From: Microbacterium neungamense | Lineage (GTDB): Bacteria; Actinomycetota; Actinomycetes; Actinomycetales; Microbacteriaceae | Length of the DNA: 64,000 nt | Assembly: GCF_024971095.1 (NCBI RefSeq) | Contig: NZ_CP069717.1 | Span: forward strand, 1-64,000 | Reading direction: 5' to 3' | In this document: in pieces, positions 4,806-60,566 of the stretch | Layout: every line of letters starts with the position of its first letter | Numbering within the stretch: position 1 is the stretch's first letter | Notes under the pieces: model-generated | What the model saw: only the letters and a program-made list of their open reading frames with translations | Database searches by the model: none | Told to the model about the DNA's origin: nothing | Program-made: the position numbers and the translations under genes

Positions 4806-6944
4806 ATGACGCCTGAAACCCCCGCTGACGACAACGGATCGACGACCGGGGGCACCCCCGACCCTTCGACGGACTCAGGCTCCGGGGCAACGGGCTCCGG
4901 GGCGACGGGCTCCGAGGCTTCGGGCTCGGAGGCGAACGGCGCGGAGGCGAACGCGAAGCGCGTGCCCGGCGAGTACGGCGCCGACGCGATCCAGATCCTG
5001 GAGGGCCTCGAGGCCGTCCGCAAGCGCCCGGGCATGTACATCGGCTCGACCGGCCCGCGCGGCCTGCACCACCTGGTGTACGAGATCGTCGACAACTCCG
5101 TCGACGAGGCGCTGGCCGGCTACTGCGACACCATCGAGGTCACGATCCTCGAGGACGGCGGCATCCGCGTCGTCGACAACGGTCGCGGCATCCCGGTCGA
5201 CCCGCACTCCTCCGACCCGACCAAGTCCACGGTCGAGGTGGTCCTCACGATCCTGCATGCCGGCGGCAAGTTCGGCGGCGGCGGATACGCGGTCTCGGGC
5301 GGTCTGCACGGCGTCGGCTCCTCCGTGGTGAACGCGCTCTCCACCCGGTTCGAGGTCGAGATCAAGCGCCAGGGTCACGTCTGGCGGCACAGCTTCGCGA
5401 ACGGCGGCGTGCCGCAGCAGTCTCTCGAGAAGGGGGAGGAGACCGACGAGACCGGCACCACGATCACGTTCTGGCCGGACCCGGCGATCTTCACCGAGAC
5501 CGTCGACTTCGACTACGACACGCTGCGCACCCGCTTCCAGCAGATGGCGTTCCTGAACAAGGGGCTGCGGATCACGCTGCGCGACGAGCGTCCGGACTCC
5601 GCGTACGAGGTGGAGGAGGAGGGCACTGTCGTCCTCAAGCAGCCGGACGACGACTTCCTCTACGAGCGCGGCCTCGTCGACTACGTCGAGTACCTGAACC
5701 GGGTGCGTCATGCCGAGGTGGTCAACGACGAGGTCATCGCCTTCGAGTCGGAGGACACCGACCGGCGCATCTCGCTCGAGATCGCGATGCAGTGGACCAC
5801 GGGCTACACCGAGAACGTGTTCACCTATGCGAACACGATCAACACGCACGAGGGCGGAACGCACGAGGAGGGCTTCCGCGCGGCGCTGACCAGCCTGGTC
5901 AACCGGTACGCCCGCGCGAACAACATCCTCAAGGAGAAGGAGGACAACCTCTCCGGCGAGGATGTGCGCGAGGGTCTCACCGCGGTCATCTCGATCAAGC
6001 TCGGCGAACCGCAGTTCGAAGGCCAGACCAAGACCAAGCTGGGCAACACCGAGGCGCGCGCGTTCGTGCAGAAGGTCGTGAACGACCAGCTCGGCGACTG
6101 GTTCGAACGCAACCCGAACCAGGCGAAGAACGTCATCCGCAAGGCGATCGACGCGGCCACCGCCCGCATCGCGGCCCGCAAGGCGCGCGAGACCGCCCGC
6201 CGCAAGAGCGTCTTCGAGTCGGCCGCGATGCCCGACAAGCTCAAGGACTGCACCAGCAAGGACCCGTCGATCAGCGAGATCTTCCTGGTCGAGGGCGACT
6301 CGGCCGGCGGCTCGGCGGTGCAGGGCCGCGACCCGCACACCCAGGCGATCCTGGCGCTGCGCGGCAAGATCCTGAACGTCGAGCGCGCGCGCCTCGACAA
6401 GGCCCTCGGCAACAAGGAGGTCCAGGCGATGATCCAGGCCTTCGGCACGGGCATCGGCGAGGACTTCGACATCGAGAAGGCCCGCTACCACAAGATCGTG
6501 CTGATGGCGGATGCCGACGTCGACGGTCAGCACATCACGACGCTGCTGCTCACGCTGCTGTTCCGCTACATGCGCGGGCTCATCGAGGCCGGTTTCGTCT
6601 ACCTCGCGATGCCGCCGCTGTACCGGCTGAAGTGGACGAACGCGCCGCACGAGTACGTGTACTCGGATGCCGAGCGCGATGCGCTGCTGCGCGACGGCCT
6701 GGCGAACGGCAAGCGGATCCCGAAGGATGCCGGCATCCAGCGCTACAAGGGTCTCGGCGAGATGAACGCCAAGGAGCTGTGGGAGACCACCATGGACCAC
6801 ACCACCCGCACGCTCCGCCAGGTGACCATCGACGACGCCGCGGCCGCGGACGAGATCTTCAGCGTGCTGATGGGCGAGGACGTCGAATCCCGCCGCACCT
6901 TCATCCAGCGCAACGCCAAGGACGTCCGCTTCCTCGACATCTGA
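4806..6944 (+). CDS. gyrB: DNA gyrase subunit B
   Basis: ATPase subunit of DNA gyrase, which introduces negative supercoils. The 712-aa protein shows the GHKL ATPase site ([33 protein letters not shown]), the TOPRIM motif EGDSAGGSA and metal-binding DADVDG, and the C-terminal [10 protein letters not shown]. The open frame runs upstream to 4584, but ATG 4806 is the first start after the dciA stop and matches the family. Residues 19-50 are a low-complexity Asp/Ser/Gly/Ala tail derived from the palindromic repeat described separately; it lies before the ATPase domain, so activity should be unaffected. A possible -10 (TAGAAT) sits at 4765-4770. Confidence 0.98.
4860..4935 (+). repeat. Palindromic-repeat-derived linker in the gyrB N-tail
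   Basis: Begins GACCCTTCGACGGACTCAGG, one change from the family centre, then continues as GGGCTCCGGGG-type short repeats. Reads in frame as DPSTDSGSG followed by Ala/Thr/Gly/Ser/Glu linker. Confidence 0.7.
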
Positions 6945-7148
6945 CAACCCCTACACACAAACACCACCGCTGCTCGTGAGCAGTGCCATTTGAACAGAAC
7001 AGAGGGCGAAGGGATCTTCGCGGAGTGAGCATCGGGGTGGCGCGTCAGCGCCGGGGCCCCCGCTCTGCGAACGAAGCGAAGATCCTGCAGCCCGCGAGCA
7101 GCAGGCGATTCGTCCCGCTCCGCTCGCTCAACGACCGGATACGGACAC
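6945..7148. repeat. Structured gyrB-gyrA intergenic spacer
   Basis: A 204-bp spacer without a gene. It holds a 10-bp inverted repeat, GGATCTTCGC (7012-7021) and GCGAAGATCC (7076-7085), enclosing GC-rich internal pairing, then CGCTCGCTCAACGACCGG just before gyrA, a motif that also ends the 52-bp repeats near 60.6 kb. It may be a read-through attenuator or a remnant repeat; there is no U-tract. Confidence 0.55.
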
Positions 7149-58591: not shown

Positions 58592-58727
58592 GGACGGACA
58601 CCTCCGGGTCGGGCGGTGGGACTCCGTCTCACGGAGTCCGGGTGCGCGTGTCGGCACGCGCGTGCCCTGGCATCCTATGCCACTCGCTCCTGTCGTACTC
58701 CGTCGCGTGCGCTCCGTGGGTGCCAGG

Positions 58728-60566
58728 TCACCCGATCAGGCTCGGCTGCAGGTCCCGCAGGGTGCGCCGGTGCGTCATCCGGGTGACGCCGATCGCGGCG
58801 ATCACGAGGGCGCCGACGAGCCAGACGCCGAGCACCCCGAGATCCCAGAGCGCGCGGTGCAGATCGCCGCCGTACATCAGCTGACGCATGGCGTCGACGA
58901 CGTATCCCATCGGCAGCACGTGGTGCAGGGTGGACAGCGGCGCCGGCAGCGTCTGCCAGGGGAACGTGCCGCCGGCGGTGACGAGTTGCAGCACCATGAG
59001 CACCAGGCCCATGAACTGGCCGACCGAGCCGAGCCAGACGTTGAGGGCGAGGATGATCGCGGCGTAGGTGGCGGATGCCATCACCATGACCCCGAGCGAG
59101 CCGCCGGGGTGCTGGAAGTCGAAGCCGAGGGCGAAGCCGAGCACCGCGAGCAGGCCGACCATCTGCAGCGCGCCGAGCCCGGCGGGGGTGAGCCAGCCGG
59201 CGAGCGTGATCCGTACGGGGGAGTGCAGGGCGGTGACGGCGCGACGCGAGATCGGCTTGACGATGAGGAACAGCGCGTAGATGCCGATCCAGCCGGCGAG
59301 GGCCGCGAAGAACGGGGCCAGGCCCTGGCCGTAGTCCTTCGCGGCGGCGACCTTGTCGCTCGAGACCGACACCGGATCGGCGATCGTGTCGGCCTGGGCG
59401 GCGCGCAGCTCGGGGGTGGAGGCCGGGATCGCGTCGACGCCCTGGGCGAGGCCGTCGCGGAGCGTGCCGATGCCCTCGCCCAGTGTGTCCAGGCCGTCGC
59501 GCAGGGTGCCGGCCCCGTCGCGAGCGGATGCCGCGCCGTCGGCGGCGCTGCGGGCGCCGTCCGCGAGCTGCCGGGCGCCGTCCGCGACGGAGCGGGCGCC
59601 CTCGGCGAGCCGTTCGACCTTGCCGGCCGCCTCCTGTGCGGCGGTGTTCCCCTCGCGGAGCCGGTCGGCCACCGGGTCGAGCCGACTCAGCACGGTGTCG
59701 ATCTGCTCCGGGGTCAGGCCCTGCTCGGCCATCGCCTGCGCGAGATCCCCACGCGCGGTGGGCAGGGCGTCGGTCGCCTGCTGCGCGAGCGAGGCGGCTC
59801 GGCCCGCGGCATCCGCGAGCTGGGCGTTGCCGTCGCGCACCTGCGCGGCACCGTCGGCCAGCCGCTGGGCGCCGTCCGCCAGGGTGCCGGTGCCGTCGGC
59901 GAGAGTGGCGAGCCCGGATGCCAGGGTCGCGGAGCCGTCGTGCGCGGTGCCGGCACCGTCGAACAGCTGCGTGGCGCCGTCGGCGGCCTCGGACAGCTTG
60001 CCGCGGACGTCGCTGAGGCCGGTGAGCAGGCGCTCCGCGGCCTCGGAGCCGACCATCTCGGCGACCGACCGGCGGATGCGTTCGACCGTCTGGCTGCCGA
60101 TGGTCGAGGCGAGGTAGTTGTTGGCGTCGTTGGTCTCGAGCTCGATCAGCGCCTGGTGCGGCTGATCGCCCCCGGCGGAGGCGAGCGCTGCGGAGAAGTC
60201 GGCGGGGAGGGTGACGGTGAAGTCGACGGTGCCGTCTTTGAGCGCCCGCTCGGCCTCGGCCGCCGTCATCACGCGCCAGTCGAACGCGCCGTCCTCGAGG
60301 AGGTTGTCGGCGACCTTCTGCCCGTAGTTCTCGGGGGCGGATGCCTCGGCCCCGGACCCTGAGCCCGTCGAAGGGTCGGTTCCGGCATCCTCCACGACGA
60401 GTGCGACCGGCACGTCGGGGAACCGGCCGTACGGGTCCTGGTTCGCCCAGAGGTAGAGGCCGCCGTAGAGGATGGGCACGCACATCAGCGCCACCAGGGC
60501 GATCGCCGCCATCGGACTGGCGGTCAGCCGCCGCAGCTCCGCCGCGATCATGGACGGCACCTTCAT
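58728..60566 (-). CDS. YhgE/Pip-family membrane protein (ABC-2-like)
   Basis: 612 aa. One N-terminal helix (about 18-38), a large external part with heptad-like repeats LADGAxxLADGA (about 190-360) typical of the YhgE/Pip (phage infection protein-like) family, and five C-terminal ABC-2-type helices (about 400-600). Likely exports a lipid or envelope component or forms part of one. Residues 63-77 (TDPSTGSGSGAEASA) come from the palindromic repeat. AGGAGGAGCG lies right before the ATG, whose first bases overlap the stop of the ABC-like gene. Confidence 0.9.
   Translation of the reverse strand: MKVPSMIAAELRRLTASPMAAIALVALMCVPILYGGLYLWANQDPYGRFPDVPVALVVEDAGTDPSTGSGSGAEASAPENYGQKVADNLLEDGAFDWRVMTAAEAERALKDGTVDFTVTLPADFSAALASAGGDQPHQALIELETNDANNYLASTIGSQTVERIRRSVAEMVGSEAAERLLTGLSDVRGKLSEAADGATQLFDGAGTAHDGSATLASGLATLADGTGTLADGAQRLADGAAQVRDGNAQLADAAGRAASLAQQATDALPTARGDLAQAMAEQGLTPEQIDTVLSRLDPVADRLREGNTAAQEAAGKVERLAEGARSVADGARQLADGARSAADGAASARDGAGTLRDGLDTLGEGIGTLRDGLAQGVDAIPASTPELRAAQADTIADPVSVSSDKVAAAKDYGQGLAPFFAALAGWIGIYALFLIVKPISRRAVTALHSPVRITLAGWLTPAGLGALQMVGLLAVLGFALGFDFQHPGGSLGVMVMASATYAAIILALNVWLGSVGQFMGLVLMVLQLVTAGGTFPWQTLPAPLSTLHHVLPMGYVVDAMRQLMYGGDLHRALWDLGVLGVWLVGALVIAAIGVTRMTHRRTLRDLQPSLIG
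60354..60377. repeat. Palindromic repeat inside the YhgE gene
   Basis: GGACCCTGAGCCCGTCGAAG followed by GGTC: a full copy lacking the last base, read in frame as DPSTGSGSG on the minus strand, the same peptide as in pknB. Confidence 0.93.

Follow-up and report, generated by a model that had tools for sequence, protein, structure and literature searches.

REPINs are inverted pairs of hairpins resembling repetitive extragenic palindromes (REPs) and occur with REP-associated tyrosine transposases (RAYTs), and Rickettsia palindromic elements (RPEs) were reportedly described by Ogata et al. in 2000 and 2002. The subject of this paper is a hairpin repeat of Microbacterium neungamense which lies both between genes and in frame inside them, and which was met in the first 64,000 nucleotides of contig NZ_CP069717.1 (the whole of this stretch is called the window below). 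According to two papers (PMC10969869; Delihas 2007, PMC2229807), RPEs are palindromic repeats of about 100-150 bp in Rickettsia, found between genes and also, with the reading frame kept, within protein genes that are unrelated to one another and often conserved. The GTAG/CGTC REPs, as presented by Di Nocera et al. 2013 (PMC3733652), are palindromes of 20-40 bp that reside mostly between convergent or co-directional genes and form inverted dimers; some are intragenic, including in repair and tRNA-related genes, and were proposed to provide flexible linkers or loops. In-frame gene fusion has also been described for bacterial miniature inverted-repeat transposable elements (MITEs) with open frames, i.e. 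ERIC and Correia (PMC2229807), MITEs being about 100-200 bp long, most with terminal inverted repeats and several with target duplications. RepRanger (PMC12306157) lists REP-like palindromes in three Actinomycetota genomes and defines REPs as seldom overlapping coding regions.

The Microbacterium repeat shares features with each of these systems. Like RPEs, it occurs in frame in unrelated protein genes with a recurrent peptide, whereas its unit is about 25 bp long and codes for a Gly/Ser/Thr linker that expands in tandem. Like REPs, it is a short palindrome with a conserved consensus and covariation at three base pairs, and it is present in many copies per genome (121 in M. neungamense, and at least 50 in 10 of 59 genomes of the genus). 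REPs are predominantly extragenic, with a preference for convergent or co-directional gaps; gaps between convergent genes are enriched for the repeat in M. neungamense, yet 90 of the 201 clusters of copies examined in six genomes lie in called genes. The terminal unpaired tag of GTAG/CGTC REPs is absent from the consensus in five genomes, and, as opposed to REPs and REPINs that are mobilised by a RAYT, no Y1 transposase gene was found in 43 Microbacterium genomes, although inverted pairs resembling REPINs occur in two genomes. As regards MITEs, the unit is shorter, and no target duplication is visible at three sites, where the empty relatives are diverged. REPs in Actinomycetota are not new, because RepRanger (PMC12306157) lists them, but Microbacterium is absent from its listing and the term 'intragenic' from its text; the main text of PMC3733652 does not contain the word Actinobacteria, and the comparison of frame, strand and spacing given below was not found in the sections consulted. 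An earlier note on the window, made from the DNA sequence, had supposed that repeated in-frame capture was undescribed; RPEs and intragenic REPs (PMC10969869, PMC2229807 and PMC3733652) speak against this. In-frame capture of palindromes is thus already known, and the family in Microbacterium adds measurable signs of selection. In the part of the open-access literature that was searched, we found no listed paper recognisable from its title and abstract as describing this repeat or in-frame palindromes in Actinobacteria, nor any report of a strand, frame and spacing contrast between genes and gaps, of capture by the same loop across species, or of slippage-like linker growth. The repeat offers a case in free-living Actinobacteria in which a selfish-looking DNA element becomes protein often enough for statistics.

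We consider it likely that the repeat is a REP-like hairpin family which is copied into and between genes, and is then shaped by selection, slippage and decay. A hairpin of about 25 bp would be copied around the chromosomes of some Microbacterium, entering genes and the gaps between them largely blind to frame and strand. Purifying selection would remove copies that break, shift or stiffen a protein, leaving soluble linkers that are close to neutral and sit in loops, in tails or at the joints between domains. A half-palindrome may subsequently grow by replication slippage in three-base steps into linkers rich in Gly, Ser and Ala, and point mutation would decay copies into ordinary linker sequence.

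The genome of M. neungamense (G000; labels of this form denote the genomes compared) is a single contig of 2,546,128 bp, of which the window comprises bases 1-64000. The exact core CTTCGACRRGCTCAG occurs 121 times in this genome (66 forward, 55 reverse), against a single match of a reversed-pattern control, which bears out the proposal of a multi-copy palindrome; in the window, an 11-mer with one mismatch allowed gave 13 matches where 3.05 were expected, and none of 100 shuffles reached 13. The unit has a stem of up to 7 bp and a loop of 11 nt, and six typed versions of it fold on either strand into a 7-bp stem with the 11-nt loop (z -1.8 to -3.0 against shuffles). Among 154 distinct copies, each the first of its cluster, from five genomes, three stem pairs covary: they are complementary in 70 copies against 41 expected, in 141 against 119, and in 150 against 76, none of which was reached in any of 2000 shuffles, and the same three pairs stand out separately in the 69 in-gene and the 85 intergenic copies. 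Beyond the core, the consensus is specific to each of the five genomes, the arms being GGACGCT/AGCGTCC and GGACCCT/AGGGTCC in G000, and GGTCCCT/AGGGACC and GGTGGCT/AGCCACC in G058. This coupling of the arms is visible in the peptide, which reads PSTGSG or ASTGSA and seldom a mixture of the two. A search of the window against Rfam at gathering scores returned three tRNAs only. An apparent crowding of cores near the origin was dropped, the impression having come from a strand-ordered partial list.

Genes were called with a fifth-order, phase-aware caller of our own, trained on the window with the repeats masked, and the peptide readings of the inserts are predicted translations of the called genes. 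Cores were sampled from five genomes (121 of 121 in G000, 52 of 128 in G029, 44 of 168 in G058, 5 of 12 in G036 and 31 of 61 in G049), and cores less than 200 bp apart were joined into a cluster, which may fall in two frame classes. The readings are STGS, LRQAQ and FDRLR in sense phases 1, 0 and 2 (s1, s0 and s2), and EPVE and LSLSK in antisense phases 1 and 0 (a1 and a0), antisense phase 2 containing a stop. Called genes held 69 of the 154 clusters, of which 68 were kept; the cluster at 48512 was dropped, since it lies about 350 bp ahead of the first MrpA domain. The 68 clusters fell into s1 46 times, s0 11, s2 once, a1 18 and a0 not at all, and the 41 strong ones among them (gene score of 40 or more, and over 20 residues away from either end) gave 31, 4, 0, 11 and 0, respectively. 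A stricter test, which takes the coding frame of both 150-bp flanks, decided 22 of the 154 clusters and placed 21 of them in phase 1, the exception being 48512 upstream of mrpA. A sixth genome, G005, was analysed after the phase-1 expectation had been fixed (21 small loci and 20 stretches with part of its 136 cores, making up 47 clusters); its 22 clusters in genes gave s1 11, s0 6, s2 1, a1 5 and a0 3. For the six genomes together, phases 1, 0 and 2 were thus used 57:17:2 in sense orientation, and phases 1 and 0 23:3 in antisense, (P/A)STGS and (P/A)EPVE being the commonest readings.

The sense frames alone do not separate selection from target choice, but three further results point to selection on the protein. 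First, single-orientation clusters of the six genomes are 64 sense to 15 antisense in genes, against 24:23 in gaps between co-directional genes (Fisher p 0.0006); for the five genomes the figures are 50:11 (7 mixed clusters dropped) against 19:19 (14 such clusters dropped; p 0.0014). That the bias is present in genes but absent between co-directional genes indicates that retention is judged at the protein level, and an insertion preferring the transcribed direction is disfavoured, because such a bias should appear between genes too. Second, the spacing between same-strand neighbours is a multiple of three in 21 of 22 pairs in genes and in 23 of 47 between genes (p 1e-4). Third, the natural frame of the core is nearly absent: TTCGAC in genes is read in the Phe-Asp frame in 95% of cases, with codons all ending in G or C, and this phase 2 is used by only 2 of 76 sense classes. 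The same count led us to reject homology to the core word itself as the insertion target, which predicts phase 2. Since frame, strand and spacing can be compared inside and outside the genes of one genome, selection on the peptide is separable from insertion bias. The selection and copying process suspected in the earlier note is therefore supported, the frames inside genes being non-random and the presence of inserts variable among relatives. Its view of the element as a soluble linker at loops and tails holds as well, except that other readings are also permitted (LRQAQ in 17 of 76 sense classes, and three LSLSK antisense classes in G005); the same peptide is not coded whichever strand the element is on, as all five gene copies of the window are in sense orientation and antisense copies elsewhere code for EPVE.

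The host proteins and the positions of the inserts in them are diverse. In G000, 27 of 29 host frames compared with Pfam match a family above its cut-off. The insert stands before or after the matched domain in ScpA, ScpB, a DNA methylase, a DUF4407 protein, an FHA protein, RNase PH, RNase H, ABC proteins and MrpC; between domains in LigD, a double ABC ATPase, a double glycosyltransferase, an FAA-hydrolase/RraA fusion and MrpA; and inside domains in a cytochrome P450, a pterin-binding enzyme, UvrC, a class I tRNA synthetase (probably IleRS), a histidine kinase, and Lhr- and HrpA-like helicases. Over the five genomes, 17 of the 69 clusters lie at most 40 residues from the N-terminus, 9 near the C-terminus and 43 internally. 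On solved chains, the point of insertion lies between residues 456 and 463 of 7k9m_B for PheT, and for PknB between residues 88 and 89 of 1mru, which we take to be the beta4-beta5 loop of the kinase fold.

Comparison with relatives shows that the same sites are filled in some genomes and empty in others. Among 30 genomes, the PheT loop carries a repeat-coded peptide in five (PSTGSG in four, an expanded EPVE in G000) and an apparently decayed version in two; the remaining 23 have neither, one of them, G048, having another long loop. A tree of the first 450 residues of PheT requires at least five gain or loss changes for the seven carriers, forced by well-supported branches. An acyl-CoA dehydrogenase loop is filled in 3 of 31 (G000, G019 and G058), and is empty in G006, G024, G016 and G020, close kin of G058, and in G030, the sister of G000 in the PheT tree. 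The insert in a UvrD-like helicase is confined to G058 among 30, while N-terminal inserts of ScpA and ScpB are present in both G000 and G049. At the GyrB tail, 30 loci include PSTDSG in G000, PSTDAG in G029, PSTGSG in G040 and ASTSSE in G030, a few vaguer versions, and none in the rest. The MrpA loop has a decayed copy in G042 and none in the other 28 of 30 loci, and no clear copy was found in the MrpC tail of the other 29 loci (one unreadable). The PknB site has the core in one of 80 loci (Microbacterium sp. TPD7012) and a long linker without the core in M. esteraromaticum; the latter is also the closest named match of PknB (73% identity in the best segment), and the nearest named relatives by this protein are Microbacterium species, records of the own species being possibly excluded. 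The YhgE loop is variable, and P-S-T-(G/S)-S-G appears in 3 of 120 listed proteins, that of G000 included. As orthologues are mostly without inserts and the loops are filled patchily, most inserts are young, being gained and lost over time, and they are no ancestral feature; relatives differ at the same site, and the linkers are not shared by all of them. Against the usual empty loop, the net gain is 12-21 bases in PheT (the G000 expansion excluded), 15 in the UvrD-like helicase, and 18 in the dehydrogenases of G019 and G058, always in threes and with some native codons replaced. Such capture by the same loop in several species shows which protein loops tolerate insertion.

Several observations weigh against the reading that we favour. 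The left arm in G000 ends in GAC, a word with 69% of its occurrences in codon phase in these genes, and this fits the sense frames of all 68 clusters (chi-square p 0.22), so that the frame bias could come in part from the choice of insertion site. The gene calls come from a caller trained on the window, and of the 69 in-gene clusters it is only for the 22 mentioned above that both 150-bp flanks clearly code in the same frame; one or both flanks are undecided for 34, and for 13 the two disagree, in many cases at gene ends, where a neighbouring gene supplies one of them. The preference is weaker in G005, where phase 1 accounts for 16 of 26 classes while 40% would be expected (p 0.02), and this genome tolerates the three LSLSK-frame classes. 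The changes in PheT can include losses, and the three filled dehydrogenase loops are no more than probably independent. No target duplication and no clean 25-bp insertion were seen at the PheT, UvrD-like and acyl-CoA dehydrogenase sites, where the empty relatives are diverged. Finally, the two outermost stem pairs covary no better than shuffles, and the search pattern itself dictates the two innermost.

As to the copying agent, a transposase acting in trans, RAYT-like or of another kind, which has been missed or lost, is quite possible, though we lean slightly against it. Amplification is patchy as it would predict. Core counts in the 59 genus genomes range from 0 (19 genomes) to 168, and are at most 3 in each of 39 other genomes of the order; G058 has 168 cores, whereas six relatives whose UvrD-like helicase is 97-98% identical have 64 (G024), 59 (G006), 25 (G016), 8 (G007), 5 (G020) and 0 (G044), the counts of the fragmented drafts G016, G020 and G044 being lowered and that of G007 coming from one contig. 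Inverted core pairs are also numerous in G005 (e.g. L550, L551 and L553) and G058, and those of G005, with starts often 30-34 bp apart, resemble REPINs. Against a transposase, a search limited, among transposase families, to the REP-type Y1_Tnp (PF01797) was negative in all 43 Microbacterium genomes (35 + 8) while being positive in 5 of 14 control genomes. It was negative as well in G380, a genome with 60 copies of a related repeat, and of 12 Y1_Tnp matches in three other repeat carriers (G284, G358 and G167), the 8 inspected had no repeat beside them. The RAYT that the earlier note had suggested looking for is accordingly not supported as the copying agent, and templated, microhomology-based copying may also be a route. 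The occurrence of 0 to 168 copies in close relatives brings the mechanism within experimental reach.

A bolder proposal, which we hold tentatively and think rather doubtful, is that the palindrome is a natural, ongoing linker-insertion mutagen, spread without a transposase by templated or microhomology copying, which lands again and again at the same loops and tails in essential proteins and then grows into long Gly/Ser linkers. Both phase-1 readings would give a soluble peptide, and the named hosts include PheT, ScpA/ScpB, GyrB and probably IleRS. If true, the element would supply the proteome with new loop and tail length.

An origin of the frame bias in insertion itself appears unlikely, although part of the frame data agrees with it. 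Entry at GAC or GGAC words by microhomology would follow the preferred codon phase of these words in high-GC genes; GAC phases in the genes of G000 (0.69/0.04/0.27) predict s1:s0:s2 about as seen, and for G000 and G019, two of the three genomes with a filled dehydrogenase loop, RRD-type relatives have GAC at the left border. However, the agreement with GAC is poorer for the 41 strong clusters (p 0.04), and the phases of GGAC do not agree (p 0.014). Entry at GAC also predicts 28% of antisense classes in phase 0, the counts being 0 of 18 for the five genomes (p 0.003), 3 of 8 for G005, and 3 of 26 together (p 0.04). Moreover, inserts in G029 and G005 are often preceded by a residue other than Asp, and a strand bias that is present in genes and absent between co-directional genes is left unexplained.

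It seems improbable, too, that the repeat is kept for a function in DNA or RNA, as a terminator, a topology site or an element of mRNA stability, with the gene copies as a by-product. In G000, 15 of 41 gaps with the repeat are convergent, against 30 of 212 gaps without it (p 0.0014), and between co-directional genes of the five genomes the repeat is nearer the 3' end in 33 of 52 cases, both of which would suit such a function, but the 3' preference is also expected from avoidance of promoters, and 19 of the 59 genus genomes do without the core. That the linkers are old, vertically inherited low-complexity tails, alike in DNA through convergent codon usage, is most improbable and already contradicted: in many relatives the host loops vary and abound in Gly, Ser, Thr and Asp, but a core found 121 times against one control match, arms that covary inside genes too, and orthologues mostly without inserts do not agree with it.

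Beyond the genus, 80 of 296 genomes of the phylum contained a wider core, CTTCGACN(1-4)GCTCAGG, in most cases as one or two matches and at about the frequency of the control. The outliers besides G000 are G380 (60), G358 (19) and G284 (16). The related repeat of G380, which belongs to another family of the same class, has a three-base spacer and stands in tandem at L537:3042-3081 in a possible gene, weakly called, where it reads F-D-S-A-Q, a frame that differs from those used in Microbacterium. The exact 17-mer CTTCGACAGGCTCAGGG was encountered in at least 120 stretches of viral contigs.

In the window, the palindrome was found at every place listed in the earlier note, with one mismatch in gyrB and with some copies decayed, and the copies in the five genes are in frame, with one peptide type, S-T-(G/S/D)-S, as had been proposed. 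The N-terminal tail of gyrB contains a decayed copy (4859..4883, forward; core 4864-4878 with the one mismatch) that codes for DPSTDSGS, followed by a half-palindrome expansion into Gly, Ser, Ala and Thr (4884..4935, forward). In pknB, the palindrome GGACCCTTCGACGGGCTCAGGGTCC lies in a loop of the kinase domain (27992..28016, reverse; exact core 27997-28011; DPSTGSGS) beside a 21-bp tandem expansion of the half-palindrome that codes for a Gly/Ser linker (27863..27991, reverse), and the insert at 27863-28015 is mostly this tandem growth. Three tandem intergenic copies, two decayed and one with an exact core at 43538-43552, occupy 43495..43558 (reverse). One exact copy (core 48512-48526) and a half copy lie upstream of mrpA at 48507..48551 (forward), within a long open frame that the gene caller joined to mrpA; they count as between genes, as formerly held, because the first MrpA domain begins only at about 48867. 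In mrpA itself, the palindrome lies between the antiporter domain and MbhD (50150..50174, forward; exact core 50155-50169; DASTGSAS), followed by an expansion in ATGSAS units (50175..50213, forward). The C-terminal tail of mrpC, whose Pfam domain ends at residue 103, has a probable decayed copy (52159..52183, forward; core with three mismatches) and a copy with a GGSAS expansion (52213..52265, forward; exact core 52218-52232; DASTSSAS). The last copy lies in a variable loop of a YhgE/Pip-family gene (60354..60378, reverse; exact core 60359-60373; DPSTGSGS). Decayed copies adjoin exact ones at 43500, 43519, 48531, 50173 and 52164 (at most three mismatches); at this threshold the reversed control has 11 matches in the window, so these assignments rest on position.

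Two further features of the window were observed. A second repeat, of 57 bp and without the CTTCGACRRGCTCAG core, lies upstream of the YhgE gene at 60610-60666 and 60799-60855; its two copies are 98% alike and have inverted-repeat arms. The region of 37-41 kb, uncalled by the gene caller, contains at 37890-39878 on the reverse strand a frame of 663 residues with the N-terminal domain of a GmrSD-type restriction endonuclease (Pfam GmrSD_N).

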